Source: Epilithonimonas xixisoli
Lineage (GTDB): Bacteria > Bacteroidota > Bacteroidia > Flavobacteriales > Weeksellaceae
Assembly (NCBI RefSeq): GCF_004365655.1
Contig: NZ_SOEO01000002.1
Location: 124,001 to 188,000, forward strand
Reading direction: 5' to 3'
Length of the DNA: 64,000 bases
Below, piece by piece: positions 19,824 to 25,690 of the stretch. The first letter of the stretch is position 1; each line of letters opens with the position of its first letter. Position numbers and translations under genes: made by a program. The notes under the pieces were generated by a model. The model saw only the letters and a program-made list of their open reading frames with translations, was not told the DNA's origin and did no database searches.

Positions 19824-21002
19824 TTAATTTTTATTACTATTCAATTCGAAACCTTGCGAATTCAAAAGAGATTTGTAATTTTCTTTTAATAATTCCCAAA
19901 TTAATTCCTGTCTGTACTTCATTACACTCGGTCTTGAAGCGGATCGAAGTTGTTGATAAAATTCCTGATTCATCAAATCATTCATTGCTTTCTGAAGCGA
20001 CTCCGCATCCTTTACAGGAACTATGAGCCCATTTTCATTATGAGTAATAATTTCATTACACCCGTTTATATCCGATACAATCGCAGGAATTCCCAGCGCC
20101 AGAGCCTGGAGTACAACATTGGGGAAACCCTCTCTGTAACTCGGAAATGCCAATGCATCACTGACTGCAAAATACGGTCTTACATCTTTTTGGAATCCCA
20201 CCGACTTGATGTTTGGATTGGTTTCAATTTCACTCAAAACCTCTGGAGACAATGGATCCAAATCTTGTTCTAAAGGGCCAACCAAGAGGAGTTTGAGGAT
20301 TGGAGCGTTGGAGGACTGGAGCGTCTTGAAGGCTGAAATCAGTTCATTGATGCCTTTGTCCTTTACCAATCTGCCAACAAATACGAAAACAAAATCCTCT
20401 TTTGAAAAACCCAGGTTTTTCCTTAATTGCTGTTTTGATTCTGAGGAGAATAATGCGGGATCAAAGTGACTGGTATCGATGCCGTTGGTACTTCCGTTTC
20501 CAATGACTTTCAGCTTATTGGGCTTGCCTAATTTTTCGTTTAAAATAAAATCATACAACCCTTGTGAGTTGGGATAGACATGCGTGGCACAACTGTAAGT
20601 GAACTTTTCTACGGCATTCAAAACTTTTCTTTTACTGCCAGAAGCTTCCATTAATGGTAATCCTGCAACGGTGTGCAGTCGGATTTTCACGCCGGCTAAT
20701 TTTGCCGCCATCATTCCTATTAAGCCTGCTTTCGGGGTATGTGTATGGACTATTTCTGGTTTTTCTTTTTTGATGTACCGGTACATTTCCCATAGTGATC
20801 TGAGATCCTGAAGCGGTGTGATCTTGCGCGTCATCTCAATCGGATGGGTTTTGATTCCCAATTCTGCGCCTACTCTTTCCAAATATTCTCTGTCTGCTGA
20901 AATGGCTGTGACCTCAAAATACTGATTCATAAAAGACAACTGCCGGCCTAGTAATTTTTCTACAGAAATAGGAACTGTGGTAATGCGAAAGAGTTTTGCC
21001 AT
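19824..21002 (-). CDS. Glycosyltransferase family 4 protein
   Basis: This is a 392-residue GT-B enzyme. The N-terminal donor/acceptor domain has EIVHTHTPKAGLIGMMAAKLAGV and LHTVAGLPLM, and the C-terminal domain begins FVFVFVGRLVKDKGINELISAF. The nucleotide-sugar site reads PSYREGFPNVVLQALALGIP. Here the second Glu of the classical E-x7-E is Gln, as I recall for the subgroup with REGFPNVVLQ. It probably adds a sugar to an undecaprenyl-linked polysaccharide intermediate. It lies beyond the repeat island from the main capsule operon and may be its detached distal gene. Its codons for TLQSSNAPIL contain two copies of a TGGAGCGT word also seen in the adjacent noncoding repeats. Confidence 0.85.
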   Translation of the reverse strand: MAKLFRITTVPISVEKLLGRQLSFMNQYFEVTAISADREYLERVGAELGIKTHPIEMTRKITPLQDLRSLWEMYRYIKKEKPEIVHTHTPKAGLIGMMAAKLAGVKIRLHTVAGLPLMEASGSKRKVLNAVEKFTYSCATHVYPNSQGLYDFILNEKLGKPNKLKVIGNGSTNGIDTSHFDPALFSSESKQQLRKNLGFSKEDFVFVFVGRLVKDKGINELISAFKTLQSSNAPILKLLLVGPLEQDLDPLSPEVLSEIETNPNIKSVGFQKDVRPYFAVSDALAFPSYREGFPNVVLQALALGIPAIVSDINGCNEIITHNENGLIVPVKDAESLQKAMNDLMNQEFYQQLRSASRPSVMKYRQELIWELLKENYKSLLNSQGFELNSNKN

Positions 21003-21152
21003 TTAAAGGAAAATTTTTGCAAATATAGGAAAAGGGAGGGAGGTTCGAGGTTTTAGGTTTTAGGTGGGAGGTTGGAGGAGGAAAGTTGGGAGGTTTGAGA
21101 GTTTGAGGGTGAATGAGGGAATGTTCTTGTCTCAACTTACGGGCTGGGAACA

Positions 21153-21192
21153 GTGAAAATTTTTGTCCCTACCCTAAAGGGAGAATTTTCAC
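21153..21192. repeat. Island hairpin element, copy 1
   Basis: GTGAAAATT at 21153-21161 pairs with AATTTTCAC at 21184-21192 (9 bp). The loop contains CCCTACCCTAAAGGGAG, which can form an inner CCCT/AGGG stem. This is the best preserved of six related copies in 21.1-23.2 kb. Confidence 0.75.
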
Positions 21193-21310
21193 TGGGGGAT
21201 TGGGCGAAGATGGAGGTTGGTGGTTTTAGGTGGGAGGAGGAAGGTTGGAGCGTCTGAGAGTTTGAGGGTGAATGAGGGAATGTTCTTGTCTCAACTTATG
21301 GGTGGGAACA

Positions 21311-21344
21311 GTGAAAATTTTTGCCCCCCTACCCTAAAGGGAGG
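21311..21344. repeat. Island hairpin element, copy 2 (3' arm missing)
   Basis: The copy has the GTGAAAATTTTTG arm and the CCCTACCCTAAAGGGAG loop but stops before the AATTTTCAC arm. It therefore looks truncated at about 21344. Confidence 0.65.
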
Positions 21345-21439
21345 TACCAGACTTTAGGTGAAAGTTTGTAGAAGTAAAGTGTGAAAATTTTAATCTACTC
21401 ATAATAATACTAATAACAATACTAATAATATCCATTGAT

Positions 21440-21494
21440 CAAAAATCCCACTCCTGAGGAATGGGACTTAGAAACCGAGCCTACTGGCTCGCTG
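21440..21494 (-). terminator. Two stem-loops downstream of the DUF6266 gene
   Basis: ATCCCACTCC ... GGAATGGGAC forms one interrupted stem and CGAGCC-tact-GGCTCG forms a second 6-bp stem, 15-70 bases past the DUF6266 stop. No clear T run follows on the minus strand, so a transcription end is only likely. The GGCTCGCT word echoes the tandem array at 22261. Confidence 0.4.
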
Positions 21495-21510
21495 AAATAA
21501 TTGTGATGCG

Positions 21511-22155
21511 CTACAAAATCACCACACTACCAGCATACGCTGAGATAGACACTTCCATCCCATCCTGAGAGCGGAACGCTATCCACACGTGCACCTCTTT
21601 GCCTGAAAAATACGGTGGCACATTGACCGTAATGGTCGTGTCTGTGCGTTCGCCCAAGTTTTCCAAGAAGACGGGGCTCTTCTGCGATTCATCATAGTAG
21701 AGCAGTTGCAACTGATCTTGCAATCGGTCTGGATTGCCTCCCGCATTGTTGTACCACTCGACTGTTAATGCCCCCACGGCTGCTGAATCCACTCCAGTGG
21801 GAACGGCAGCAAGGAGATTCCCTAATGAGAACTCGATCTCCGAGAACACTGGTGTGATGGTCATCTGTGCAAAATCTAACTTGAAGGCATTCAACAGATT
21901 TGTAATCGCCTGGTTGTAGCTGGACCTCATCCCTTGTTTGTAGCCAAAGTGCATAGATGCATAGCCTTTGTACGGGAGGATAAAATCATAACATCGCTTC
22001 ATCCTTTCCTGGATCAAAGCCTGCTTAGGAGACAGCGGCGTGTTCTTCTTACGCGGACGTACTCTTAAGATTTCAGTTCCGGCAACGTTTGCCACGACTA
22101 GTCGTCCAGTTCTTCCACTGGATCCTGACAATAAAGAATCATTAAGTTTTCCCAT
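21511..22155 (-). CDS. DUF6266 family protein
   Basis: The 214-residue protein starts MGKLNDSLLSGSSGRTGRLV, followed by NVAGTEILRVRPRKKNTPLSPKQ. This recalls the DUF6266 opening (MG-x-G-x-x-G-x-x-G-x-x-G-x-V and a later PRT/LS-x-x-Q segment). The middle has MHFGYKQGMRSSYNQAITNLL, and the C-terminal half is beta-rich (TDTTITVNVPPYFSGKEVHVWIAF). The family is restricted to Bacteroidota, has no known function and often occurs in variable or repeat-rich regions. No signal peptide. The gene has higher GC than its surroundings and is flanked by tandem and hairpin repeats, which suggests it arrived as part of a cassette. Confidence 0.75.
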   Translation of the reverse strand: MGKLNDSLLSGSSGRTGRLVVANVAGTEILRVRPRKKNTPLSPKQALIQERMKRCYDFILPYKGYASMHFGYKQGMRSSYNQAITNLLNAFKLDFAQMTITPVFSEIEFSLGNLLAAVPTGVDSAAVGALTVEWYNNAGGNPDRLQDQLQLLYYDESQKSPVFLENLGERTDTTITVNVPPYFSGKEVHVWIAFRSQDGMEVSISAYAGSVVIL

Positions 22156-22260
22156 GATAATTATTTTACGGGGTTAAACATGTCAAAGGTAGAATGTCTC
22201 TGAGGCTGTTTTTCGAAAGCTTCCGAAATTTGCCGATATTTTCCTTTTTGAAGTAATTTC

Positions 22261-22345
22261 TATAGGCTCGCTATAGAGTTTGTATAGGCTCGCTATAGGC
22301 TTTATATAGGCTCGCTATAGGCTCTGGATAGGGCTTGTATAGGAT
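22261..22345. repeat. 22-bp tandem array (TATAGGCTCGCTATAG core)
   Basis: Three units begin at 22261, 22283 and 22305 with an exact 22-bp period: TATAGGCTCGCTATAG plus 6 variable bases. They are followed by two decayed pieces (TAGGGCTTG, TATAGGATTGG). Each core is itself an inverted repeat, TATAG-gctcg-CTATA. The array lies 106-190 bases upstream of the DUF6266 start, so it could act as a set of operator sites or as hairpins in the leader. Confidence 0.8.
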
Positions 22346-22371
22346 TGGTTCGATGATGGATGATGGATAGT

Positions 22372-22412
22372 GTAAATTTGTACCCCGACCCTAAAAGGAG
22401 AATTTTCACTGG
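22372..22412. repeat. Island hairpin element, copy 3
   Basis: GTAAATTTGTACCCCGACCC ... AGGAGAATTTTCACTGGG. The right arm AATTTTCAC is intact and the left arm has lost bases, so the stem is shortened. Confidence 0.65.
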
Positions 22413-22441
22413 GATGCTGGTGGGAGGATGGGAACGTACAA

Positions 22442-22490
22442 ATGAAAATTTTTACCCCAACCATGAAGGGTGAATTTTCATTGGGGTAAA
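22442..22490. repeat. Island hairpin element, copy 4 (two interleaved stems)
   Basis: ATGAAAATT (22442) pairs with AATTTTCAT, and TTTACCCCAA (22451) pairs with TTGGGGTAAA (22481). The order of the arms is 1-2-1'-2', which is pseudoknot topology. Both pairings are perfect over 9-10 bp. Confidence 0.65.
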
Positions 22491-22645
22491 TCCAATAAAT
22501 TGTGAGTTTTTCTGTATTGGAAAGTTGGCTTGTGTCGGGATTTGGAAGTTCTTTTTTTATCATCAATTGTAGCATGGTGGGTTTGGCAGGTTTCATTGAA
22601 CATCATCAGCATTATTATTTAATTTATTAAAAAAATTATTCAAAA

Positions 22646-22659
22646 TACGGATAACCGTA
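22646..22659. promoter_or_regulatory. Candidate operator TACGG-ataa-CCGTA
   Basis: A perfect 5-bp dyad with a 4-base spacer lies about 40 bases upstream of the HTH gene start, followed by an AT-rich stretch (AAAATTTTTTTGGCAT). It could be the binding site of the HTH protein itself; this is inference from position. Confidence 0.35.
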
Positions 22660-22698
22660 AAATTTTTTTGGCATAGCTTACTAATTTGGTTTAATAAA

Positions 22699-22992
22699 AT
22701 GCAAACCATCATGAAACAATTTTTGCTTTTCAGTGAGAGCCAAATCAATGAATGGATTTTGAATCTCAGACAAACCATTGAAAACATTCTATCCAATGGC
22801 ATCCAGCTCGATCGGACGATGCTTATGACCGAAAAGGAGGTCGCCCAGCTTCTGAGGGTGAGCGAGCGGACAATGCGCACTTACCGTACTCATAAATATT
22901 TTCATCACATCAAAATTGAAGGCAACGTTTATTATCTGACACTTATCCTTTTTCTAGACTTGATTGTTTTGAGTTTGGAGAGTTGTGTTTAG
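22699..22992 (+). CDS. Small helix-turn-helix (excisionase/MerR-like) DNA-binding protein
   Basis: The 97-residue protein contains LMTEKEVAQLLRVSERTMRTYRTHKYFHHIKIEGNVYYL (about 42-80), a classical winged HTH of the HTH_17/excisionase type often found in Bacteroidota mobile elements. An N-terminal helix (about 10-35) precedes it. The last 18 residues are unusually hydrophobic and their DNA runs into the purine-rich repeat that follows, so the native C-terminus may have been replaced by repeat sequence. The start could also be the ATG at 22711. No integrase lies nearby. It may control the neighbouring DUF6266 gene or a lost element. Confidence 0.65.
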   Translation: MQTIMKQFLLFSESQINEWILNLRQTIENILSNGIQLDRTMLMTEKEVAQLLRVSERTMRTYRTHKYFHHIKIEGNVYYLTLILFLDLIVLSLESCV

Positions 22993-23203
22993 GTGGCGGG
23001 TTGCTAGGTGCGAGGTGGCGGGGTTGGAGCGTGCAAGTGTGGGAGTGAAATTTTTCGTCTCAATCTTACTGGTTGGGAACAGTGAAAATTTTCGCCCGAC
23101 CCTAAACCCTAAGGGATTGAGTGAAGGTGTGAAGATTGGTGATGGATGATGGATGATGGGTAGATGAAAATCTTTGCCCAAGCTTAGTGGGAGAATTTTC
23201 ACT
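22975..23203. repeat. Degenerate repeat unit plus hairpin elements, copies 5 and 6
   Basis: The stretch repeats the purine-rich theme (GGGTTGGAGCGTGCAAG, CTGGTTGGGAACAGTGAAAA). It then gives copy 5 of the hairpin (from 23082, right arm decayed), a GATGGATGATGGATGATGGG stutter, and copy 6 (ATGAAAATC at 23164 with AATTTTCAC ending at 23202). It closes the repeat-bounded island on the right. Confidence 0.65.
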
Positions 23204-23241
23204 GGAGATTGTGAATTTTCTGAGATTGTTGAATCATTCGA

Positions 23242-24303
23242 TTATGCTTTATCTCTGGGTGGTGATTTGATTTGTGTGATGATCTGGAGAGCTGCTATTA
23301 ACAGGAATGGCAGGTACATTATTTTTGTCCGGACGAAAATACCGAGGCAGGAATAACGCTGGATGAAAAACAAGGAGGAAATGATGAAAAAGAACCATGC
23401 TATTTTAGCAAAATTATTCAATTTCACTTTTCGAAAATTCTTGATATAGACTCCTACTGCACCCATCAAAATCATCAACACAATTAGATTCTCCACACTT
23501 AGAATCACCGAAAACCAGGAAAAGGGCGTTTCAAAAAGCGGCCGGAAGTTGAGTGCCAATATTCTTTCGAACCAATTGTAATCTATCATTGGGACATAAG
23601 AACCTGCCCGTTTAAAGGCTATTAATGAGGCCTTGTTGCGCTCTAAGATGTAGGCCAAATCAAACGGATTGCGGTTGAGCAGCTGCATTGTCATCAGGTA
23701 TAATCCAGAGACCACCAAAACACCGCCGATTACTAAACCCGACTTTTTCCAATTCCATTTTTTACTATCCCAAACTGTCGTCAGTAATATGGCCATCAAA
23801 AGAAACATGGCCACGTGCGGGCGAATGAGTATCAGCAACAAGCTACCCAATGCGAATTTGAGACTAAAATACTTGTTTTCTGAACACTTGGTGATTATCC
23901 AAGTGGTGGCTAGAAATACCAAAGGTTCTTTTCCGATGATTGAAGTCCAAAAGTGTAGATTTGGGAGCAGAAAGACCAGCATCAACAAATATTTGCTCCA
24001 TTTTTTTTTTGGACTGATGTATTTTAAAGCCCATCTATAAAGCTCTAAGATTGCATAATACCCAACCAAACTATGAATTACAAAACCTGCCCAAAATGGC
24101 AACTGCAGTATTTTTGAAAATGGGTAGTTAAAAAACTTGATGAAGTCTGTTCCTACATTAAAATATGAGAACCAATCTCCTGTAAAATGCCAGTATCTGT
24201 AAGCATCTGAGGGATTCTGTAGATTGTACTGCCAAGCCAAGACGGCAAACAAGAGGTGGTAAACCAATAAAAAGGCAGGGAAAACCTGTTCTTTGTTTTT
24301 CAT
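23242..24303 (-). CDS. Polytopic membrane protein, possible polysaccharide polymerase (Wzy-like)
   Basis: The 353-residue protein has about nine to ten transmembrane helices. It shares several motifs with the product of 24509-25690: LPNLHFWTSIIGKEPLVFLATT, LIRPHVAMFLLM, LSVENLIVLMIL and VRTKIMYLPFLLIAA. The two are therefore paralogues of one family. Position at the distal end of a capsule locus and the lack of another obvious Wzy suggest a polymerase or O-antigen-ligase-like role, but no family name is certain. A 205-base gap with repeats separates it from its paralogue, so it may be transcribed separately. Confidence 0.65.
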   Translation of the reverse strand: MKNKEQVFPAFLLVYHLLFAVLAWQYNLQNPSDAYRYWHFTGDWFSYFNVGTDFIKFFNYPFSKILQLPFWAGFVIHSLVGYYAILELYRWALKYISPKKKWSKYLLMLVFLLPNLHFWTSIIGKEPLVFLATTWIITKCSENKYFSLKFALGSLLLILIRPHVAMFLLMAILLTTVWDSKKWNWKKSGLVIGGVLVVSGLYLMTMQLLNRNPFDLAYILERNKASLIAFKRAGSYVPMIDYNWFERILALNFRPLFETPFSWFSVILSVENLIVLMILMGAVGVYIKNFRKVKLNNFAKIAWFFFIISSLFFIQRYSCLGIFVRTKIMYLPFLLIAALQIITQIKSPPRDKA

Positions 24304-24508
24304 CTCGGAGCTTTTGCTAATATTTTGTCTAATCAGTAATGAATGCGAAGTTAAGGAATTTTAGGATTTGGAAGTGCTTTGTTAAGATGCTTCGAGAACC
24401 TCAGCAGGACATTTTTATTGAACAAATAAATATTAATTAATTTAAGTGCTTCGAGAGCATCAGCATGACAGGTTAATTAAAAATTTGTCAAAATGATTTA
24501 AAACTATC
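24304..24508. repeat. Gap with two CTTCGAGA-type repeats
   Basis: AAGATGCTTCGAGAACCTCA (24384 onward, then GCAGGACA) and AAGTGCTTCGAGAGCATCAG (24444 onward, then CATGACA) are two copies of one short repeat. A third copy is at 49513-49537 after an unrelated gene. No coding frame is visible in this gap. Confidence 0.6.
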
Positions 24509-25690
24509 TTATTTTACTTTTGGTCGTGTCTTTGAAGCCCTAATTCTTTGCTGCTGATAAGAGAAGACCCACATCATATAGATGATTAATCCCGGGAGGA
24601 ACATATTTCGCATCCTGATCATAATTCCTACATTACCCAATGATTGCGAGAAGGCCAAGGTTCCTACAATTAAGAATATCACAAGGCCTTTGATTACAAA
24701 TGGTGCTGCTTTGAACGCACCAATTGGGTTGGTTCGCATCGCTTTGATAAATACAATCACTAAGACCAAGTTCTCCAGCGACGCAATGAGTCCGTTGATG
24801 TTTCTAACGTCAAAAAAGAAAGGTCTGAACCAAAATGTAAGCACTTTAAGCGGGAAAGGATATGATGAAATATCGATAGCTGAGCCCGTGCTTGCGCGGC
24901 TCAGCACCTCCGCTTTTCCTGTCGCAAATTTATCGAAACCTTCTGCAGAAGCTTCTTCTATCTTTGCGAACTCCATCACGCTTGGTAAAATAGCTATTCC
25001 TATTCCTATCATTACGGCAGAAAATAAAAACCTCTGAAAAGGTGACACCTTTCCACCAAATACATAAGCTAATCCGAAACCTAACATTAAGAATAATGTG
25101 ATATGGGGACGGATGGCCATAGATAACAAAATAGAAATTACTAATAAAGGAATTCTCTGAAAAGGTTTCATTAAACCGTAGGTAAACATTCCAATGCAAA
25201 GGAAAAGCAAAGTATCTTTTCCAACTCCAGCACTCCAAAAATGTAGGTTGGGCAAGAAGAAAATCAAAGGAAATAAAACGTATCCACGGATCATTATGTT
25301 ATAAGGAACCAATCTTGCTGCAATTAAGAAAAAGTAAGTTATGCCAAACGATCCCAGCATACTATAGAACATTGTATTTGACAAAAAAGACATACCCATC
25401 AGATTTGCAGGAATAAAATTAAACGCTCTCATAAACGCTGTTCCTTCTCCTCCAGTGATATCTGCCATAAACTGTAAATAGTTCATGTTTTTTGCAACGA
25501 CCCAATACCCCCATGCGTCCCCACCACCATTGTTAGTAGTAAGAAAATATGCAATTCCTAATAAAAAATGAAATAATGCAAGTTTTTTAAGTGATGGATA
25601 GAACAAATATTCCTTATCCTCCATTAGGAGTTTAGGGAATTGCAAAGCAAGCAAAACAAAAAGCGGGATATAAAGAATATCTAAAATCAC
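24509..25690 (-). CDS. Polytopic membrane protein, possible polysaccharide polymerase (Wzy-like)
   Basis: The 393-residue protein has about ten to eleven transmembrane helices. It has a loop LTTNNGGGDAWGYWVVAKNM early on, LPNLHFWSAGVGKDTLLFL, MAIRPHITLFLML and IASLENLVLVIVFIKAM. The last three stretches recur in the paralogue at 23242. The GDAxGYW segment resembles the early loop of EpsG/Wzy-like polymerases. It lies 1 base downstream of a GT4 gene in the capsule operon, which suits a Wzy polymerase that joins repeat units in the periplasm. The assignment is from context and topology, not from a diagnostic motif. Confidence 0.65.
   Translation of the reverse strand: MILDILYIPLFVLLALQFPKLLMEDKEYLFYPSLKKLALFHFLLGIAYFLTTNNGGGDAWGYWVVAKNMNYLQFMADITGGEGTAFMRAFNFIPANLMGMSFLSNTMFYSMLGSFGITYFFLIAARLVPYNIMIRGYVLFPLIFFLPNLHFWSAGVGKDTLLFLCIGMFTYGLMKPFQRIPLLVISILLSMAIRPHITLFLMLGFGLAYVFGGKVSPFQRFLFSAVMIGIGIAILPSVMEFAKIEEASAEGFDKFATGKAEVLSRASTGSAIDISSYPFPLKVLTFWFRPFFFDVRNINGLIASLENLVLVIVFIKAMRTNPIGAFKAAPFVIKGLVIFLIVGTLAFSQSLGNVGIMIRMRNMFLPGLIIYMMWVFSYQQQRIRASKTRPKVK

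Follow-up and report, generated by a model that had tools for sequence, protein, structure and literature searches.

A phased two-block repeat array before DUF6266 genes and a dedicated HTH_17 partner gene in Epilithonimonas and other Bacteroidota

The window analyzed here is a 64-kb stretch (C2:124001-188000) of the 3.39-Mb genome of Epilithonimonas xixisoli (genus Epilithonimonas, family Weeksellaceae), in which a glycosyltransferase (GT) gene at 19824-21002 is followed by a DUF6266 gene, a tandem repeat array, and a small helix-turn-helix (HTH) gene. The DUF6266 gene (21511-22155, minus strand; 214 amino acids) matched Pfam family PF19781 with 73.2 bits (E = 2.7e-20; curated cut-off, 23.4 bits), and the HTH gene (22711-22992, plus strand; 93 amino acids) matched HTH_17 (PF12728) with 30.8 bits (E = 3.5e-7; curated cut-off, 27 bits), in agreement with a first-pass annotation made from the sequence alone. 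That annotation had titled the region a repeat-bounded island and read it as a non-autonomous cassette bounded by hairpins. The DUF6266 gene, the HTH gene, and the tandem array do belong together; the hairpin-bounded cassette and the island title were not supported, and the tandem array is the significant part. The HTH gene had also been described as running out into repeat sequence. Its predicted end (...SLESCV*) aligned with the ends of orthologues (e.g., ...SLESLL*), by which a truncated gene was ruled out. The open reading frame (ORF) extends from 22699, and alignment with 22 relatives, from which both ends of the gene were set, places the start probably at 22711 rather than 22699.

The GT gene was used as a query against 23 genomes of the genus, and the DNA 5' of it was compared. 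The order GT, DUF6266 (same strand), and HTH (opposite strand) was shared by G016, E. tenax (G019), E. hominis (G006), G004, and G018, and E. mollis (G009) had the same gene order with a frame-broken, decayed DUF6266 gene. Identities of GT and DUF6266 to the window copies were 89 and 76% in G016, 86 and 74% in E. tenax, 76 and 64% in E. hominis, 73 and 51% in G004, and 64 and 46% in G018; DUF6266 identity thus declines in step with GT identity, the pattern that vertical descent would give. In G014 and G021, the GT gene and its wzy-like neighbor were present with nothing between them, and G005 carried other sequence there. At such empty sites, the intergenic DNA of these species has diverged beyond the point at which target-site duplications are legible. 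Measured against the refuting condition set in the first-pass annotation (an island kept in place in all relatives), the pair is conserved in position and orientation beside GT in six genomes and is absent from the site in G014 and G021. Differences from G016 at first, second, and third codon positions numbered 27, 12, and 102 in the DUF6266 gene and 11, 10, and 25 in the HTH gene, and this concentration at third positions indicates that both genes are under purifying selection. Two genes, one for an HTH_17 protein and one for a DUF6266 protein, make up the locus as a resident module, with a helically phased array before DUF6266 as its putative operator. A degree of modularity is left: the DUF6266/HTH unit occupies three unrelated sites in this genome, is missing from the window site in G014 and G021, and has counterparts in solo arrays that lack the genes. 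An HTH_17 gene lies upstream of the other two DUF6266 genes of this genome as well. The second such unit (within C1:270568-274158) lies directly before a gene, from about 2334 of that stretch onward, whose first part resembles a type II cas9.

Between the two genes lies an array of two blocks. The 11-bp block (22257-22344, minus strand) consists of eight direct repeats, TCGCTATAGGC/TTTnTATAGGC on the plus strand, or GCCTATAnnnn when read toward DUF6266; it was detected by Tandem Repeats Finder (22257-22332, score 110) and is the strongest lag-11 and lag-22 stretch in the 64 kb. What had been reported as a 22-bp tandem array is thus a real array whose true unit is 11 bp, its eight units alternating in sequence. 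The 10-bp block (22211-22244, minus strand) contains about 3.4 units, TTTCGAAAGC TTCCGAAATT TGCCGATATT TTCC on the plus strand; it is weak on its own and was recognized only through comparison with relatives, in which a 10-bp block occupies a conserved position. Closer to the gene lies a Bacteroidota-type -7 promoter box of DUF6266, TACCTTTG (22184-22191, minus strand), at -36 from the start codon.

The same layout was found before DUF6266 genes well outside the genus. DUF6266 was present in 26 of 395 genomes of a phylum sample, and the array periodicity of 125 DUF6266 upstream regions was scored by lag against dinucleotide shuffles. Mean z scores were 3.4 at lag 10 and 3.9 at lag 11, with lags 20, 22, and 30 also raised, and periodicity was flat in the controls (330 bp downstream of DUF6266, n = 66; region 1 kb upstream, n = 123). 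An array was present at P ≤ 0.01 (combined shuffle test) in 104 of 148 loci, and of the 45 loci having both blocks, 43 had the 11-bp block on the 5' side. The 10-bp block started at a median of -112 from DUF6266, and a TAnnTTTG/TAnnTTCG box lay at a median of -36 (quartiles, -36.5 to -35) in 87 relatives. Orthologous loci of the window pair had an equivalent 11-bp block. The 11-bp period preceded most DUF6266 genes with a unit that differed by group (TATAGGCTTTC here, CTTCGGATCAT beside cas9, and GATACAGAACG and GGTACAGAAAA in others). Among the cleanest examples was the Niabella array, with about 13 copies of GATACAGAAAG and then about eight of GGGATCAGAA; Flavobacterium and Myroides arrays had GGATATAGAAA followed by GGCAAATCAC-like units. 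The cas9-side copy belongs to a subfamily whose 11-bp block takes the form of two inverted arrays around a conserved AAAAAACATCTTTTTT center, at about -230 to -130. The two-block layout therefore recurs before DUF6266 genes across Bacteroidota, at a fixed position at the promoter. It has apparently not been described before; literature searches for DUF6266, for DUF6943, and for similar repeats yielded no relevant paper.

The HTH gene is linked to the same loci. A relative of it was found no more than 1.3 kb upstream of DUF6266 in 67 of 123 loci, versus downstream in 2 of 65; in Niabella, Weeksella, and Empedobacter, the HTH relative lies downstream instead. A search of the genus with the HTH profile gave 16 strong matches, of 69 bits or more, and 15 of them adjoined DUF6266; below these came a fragment at one of those loci and then a drop to generic HTH_17 matches (<49 bits). 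This HTH subfamily is dedicated to DUF6266. Arrays were found in 66 of 77 loci with a linked HTH gene versus 15 of 37 without (P = 1.5e-6) and, within type B, in 18 of 21 versus 1 of 5 (P = 0.01), both values being inflated by shared ancestry. Where core DUF6266 genes had no linked HTH gene, DUF6943 (PF22105) or a DUF6943-like gene adjoined DUF6266 in three of the five loci read, in three genomes (5487-5927 in L241, 6128-6568 in L242, and 4876-5301 in L246).

Arrays were mostly, not exclusively, tied to DUF6266. Two patterns were searched for: four GTCA words at 10-bp spacing with no more than one mismatch, and CTAT at 11 bp. The GTCA pattern occurred at 15 places in the genus, 12 of them upstream of DUF6266 genes; of the other three, G004:C21 looks like a chance match, G010:C45 runs into a contig edge, and G018:C44, also close to a contig end, has no DUF6266 gene in the stretch examined. 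The CTAT pattern also found solo arrays without DUF6266 or HTH genes. A seven-unit TATAGGCTTTC array without genes lies beside an hsdM-like gene in G004 (C33, about 2401-2481) and is probably a remnant, because the same chromosomal site holds DUF6266 in the source genome. Short three-unit 11-bp arrays without DUF6266 were seen at one conserved intergenic site common to G004, G008, and G014. E. bovis (G002) has three dispersed copies, about 65 bp each, of an 11-bp array (CTATGGCTTTG) with no DUF6266 or HTH gene nearby, and these solo arrays are possibly mobile or targets in trans.

Structural models were examined for both proteins. The AlphaFold2 model of the HTH protein (predicted local distance difference test [pLDDT] score, 86) has an N-terminal helix and a BldC-like winged HTH, and its best PDB fold match was BldC on smeA-ssfA DNA (6ama, chain P; 1.0 Å over 40 columns), with RdfS further down the list. 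The model fits a MerR-like winged HTH without an effector domain, at E values that are weak for this match. A PDB sequence search with the HTH protein returned nothing useful, and excisionase models matched it weakly, far below cut-off. The DUF6266 model (mean pLDDT, 85.7; confident from residue 40 on) comprises a glycine-rich basic N-terminal arm, a helical hairpin (residues 43 to 90), and a C-terminal FN3-like domain recognized by PDB fold matches; the arm ranks with the best-conserved regions of DUF6266 and is unstructured and of low confidence in the model. This predicted fold suggests an intracellular binding or assembly protein. PDB sequence searches with DUF6266 gave only E values of 0.5 or higher. 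No relatives of DUF6266 were found in phage, plasmid, and viral collections (including IMG/VR), and PADLOC returned only short, weak matches to anti-phage defense models (SduA, 5e-4; mad1, 1e-4); a defense system or phage or plasmid cargo thus found no support. All DUF6266 proteins considered here belong to Pfam PF19781, whose entry gives no function, operator, or partner.

The reading that we put forward, with even confidence, is that DUF6266 is controlled by a filament that the BldC-like HTH protein forms on the array. Successive HTH subunits would occupy the repeats head to tail, with one subunit for each turn of the DNA and every subunit on the same face, so that a cooperative filament would form beside the DUF6266 promoter and would switch the gene on or off sharply. 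Architecture and linkage were observed, whereas binding by the HTH protein, the filament, and the sign of regulation are inferred. For BldC of Streptomyces, a MerR-like HTH_17 protein, head-to-tail binding to direct repeats is reported, successive molecules being one helical turn apart (PMC5859096); RdfS is likewise reported to form head-to-tail oligomers, RdfS, Xis, and BldC form filaments, and the extra N-terminal helix of RdfS drives oligomerization (PMC11963761). The present system resembles BldC in its small winged HTH and in direct repeats of varying number, spaced by one helical turn, beside promoters. It differs in that BldC is pleiotropic, lacks an N-terminal extension, and uses few 9-bp repeats, whereas the HTH protein here has an N-terminal helix and is dedicated to one neighboring gene, and two blocks hold the 10- and 11-bp repeats, in up to about 13 copies. 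With Xis and RdfS it shares the HTH_17 class, in which those two proteins form filaments along DNA, and, with RdfS, the extra N-terminal helix; unlike in those systems, no linked integrase or att site was seen (not every window ORF was scanned), and the array lies at the DUF6266 promoter. Array geometry also recalls another known arrangement. In the parC centromeres of plasmids, direct repeats of about 11 bp are arrayed close to the operon promoter and are bound by ParR on one DNA face; here, by contrast, there is no partition ATPase or filament gene, the locus is chromosomal, and the HTH protein is not a ribbon-helix-helix protein.

Several observations weigh against an HTH filament. Sites in the BldC crystal are 9 bp, versus 10 or 11 bp here; the Foldseek E values for so small a domain were weak (0.07); the association between HTH gene and array is confounded by shared ancestry; and arrays occurred without a detectable HTH gene within 1.5 kb in several distant loci. 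Unit sequence was correlated with DUF6266 relatedness when HTH relatedness was controlled for (partial Mantel test, r = 0.45 for the 11-bp unit and 0.53 for the 10-bp unit; P = 5e-4), and the correlation with HTH relatedness given DUF6266 was about 0. The HTH recognition helix, compared with the 11-bp unit given DUF6266, gave r = 0.08 to 0.22 (P = 0.03 to 0.23 before any correction), and Mantel tests thus did not support the idea that the recognition helix dictates the repeat unit. The array may be inherited with the adjacent gene while the HTH protein reads DNA shape, or DUF6266 may read its own array; shape reading was proposed for BldC and RdfS. Confidence in the HTH-filament model was held at about even because the Mantel tests went against a simple model in which the HTH protein reads the unit.

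A broader and more tentative proposal is that either the dedicated HTH protein or DUF6266 itself polymerizes on a two-pitch array, with 11 bp and then 10 bp per turn. This would be a phylum-wide, undescribed regulatory system, possibly a bistable switch for an FN3-fold protein, with private sequence codes at each locus; its specification by DNA geometry would follow from unit sequences that diverge between loci while helical spacing is kept.

It is rather unlikely, in our estimate, that DUF6266 binds its own array in autoregulation, for example through its glycine-rich basic N-terminal arm, with the HTH protein accessory or acting elsewhere. The Mantel results, in which units follow DUF6266 and not HTH relatedness, the persistence of arrays at loci with no detectable HTH gene, and the high conservation of the arm are consistent with it. 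The array adjoins DUF6266, however, so that shared ancestry alone yields the correlation of unit with DUF6266; moreover, the DUF6266 model has no known DNA-binding fold, the arm is modeled at low confidence, and FN3 domains usually serve in the binding of proteins or sugars.

It is unlikely that a general chromosomal factor reads the array, or that the array acts through intrinsic curvature of the phased DNA at a promoter that depends on an activator. Periods of 10 and 11 bp with their multiples, the fixed position beside the promoter, and an AAAA tract often present in the 10-bp unit (GTCAAAACCG) would fit such an explanation, but 11-bp units such as CCGAAGAAGAC contain no A-tract, units vary widely among loci, and the dedicated HTH protein is left unexplained.

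We consider it quite improbable that a mobile unit uses the array as an accessory recombination site, the Xis-like HTH protein being its directionality factor and the recombinase being supplied from elsewhere in trans. The three unrelated sites of the DUF6266/HTH unit in one genome, its absence at the window site in some relatives, the solo arrays without genes (dispersed in E. bovis), and the weak matches of the HTH protein to excisionase families point that way. They are opposed by conservation of the pair in place across divergent species, with DUF6266 identity falling along with GT identity, by the lack of matches in phages, plasmids, or IMG/VR, and by the location of the two-block array at the DUF6266 promoter. 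Nor was a linked integrase seen; as had been noted in the first pass, no transposase or integrase was present among the ORFs between the neighboring genes (not every ORF of the window was scanned for one).

A non-autonomous cassette bounded by GTGAAAATT hairpins is highly improbable, even though hairpins lie on either side of the gene pair and between its members. Repeated GTGAAAATT...AATTTTCAC elements do occur where six hairpins had been reported, as four two-armed copies and two half copies without a right arm. Only some fold as DNA: the complete element at 21151-21194 (folded segment 21150-21196), a member of the genome-wide CCCTAAAGGG intergenic family, folded clearly better than shuffles (z = -4.25), and those at 22440-22483 (two arms; segment 22438-22486) and 23165-23204 (imperfect arms; segment 23163-23206) were borderline. 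Folding was not better than in shuffles for the element with a degenerate left arm (22368-22411) or for the half copies at 21309-21343 (left arm and loop only; segment 21308-21352) and 23080-23115 (left arm only; segment 23079-23118). Sites resembling AATTTTCACTG numbered 11 in the window versus 4.9 expected, a count reached in 0 of 100 shuffles, and all three genome matches of the left arm AGTGAAAATTTTNGNCC fell in this region. The loop core ACCCTAAAGGGAG occurred 14 times genome-wide (versus once for a backward control), mostly far from any DUF6266 gene and in hairpins with arms other than those of the window, so the hairpins here are local representatives of an intergenic repeat that occurs throughout the genome. 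The duplicated purine-rich unit was confirmed (repeat family D3): copy 1 (21046-21143) is followed by a hairpin element and copy 2 (21205-21302), 83% identical at a spacing of 159, by a half hairpin, and the two hairpin elements at 21.1 to 21.35 kb derive from one duplication of about 159 bp. A third, diverged copy lies near 22988-23106. At orthologous loci, E. hominis had no such hairpins, E. tenax had two CCCTAAAGGG cores with other arms, and G016 had one hairpin, 3' of the HTH gene; neither of the two further DUF6266 loci in this genome showed them in the stretches examined. A pattern like that of miniature inverted-repeat transposable elements, with the same hairpins at both ends of other copies, was seen neither at orthologous nor at other DUF6266 loci. 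Scattered genome-wide by their core, absent in their window form from E. tenax and E. hominis, and flanking genes conserved in place, the hairpins are not boundaries of an island. Searches for known RNA families in the region found none. Genome-wide, on C1, C2, and C3, an intergenic hairpin family with core CCCCAACCCTAAAGGGAG was seen, whose members often stand back to back in pairs and have A/T-rich arms that vary. Beyond the last hairpin, two adjacent hydrophobic wzy-like proteins, about 25% identical and without a Pfam match, are encoded at 23242-25690 (minus strand).

Tandem repeats can arise by slippage, and neutral repeats of that origin without function are scarcely credible here, given two periods, an order, and a promoter distance kept across orders with unrelated units and flat controls.

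These results provide the DUF6266 family with a partner and a control region, along with a mechanism that can be tested. More than 100 loci with conserved spacing and diverged sequence offer a natural series for how head-to-tail HTH filaments read DNA and for how a single promoter combines helical pitches of 10 and 11 bp.

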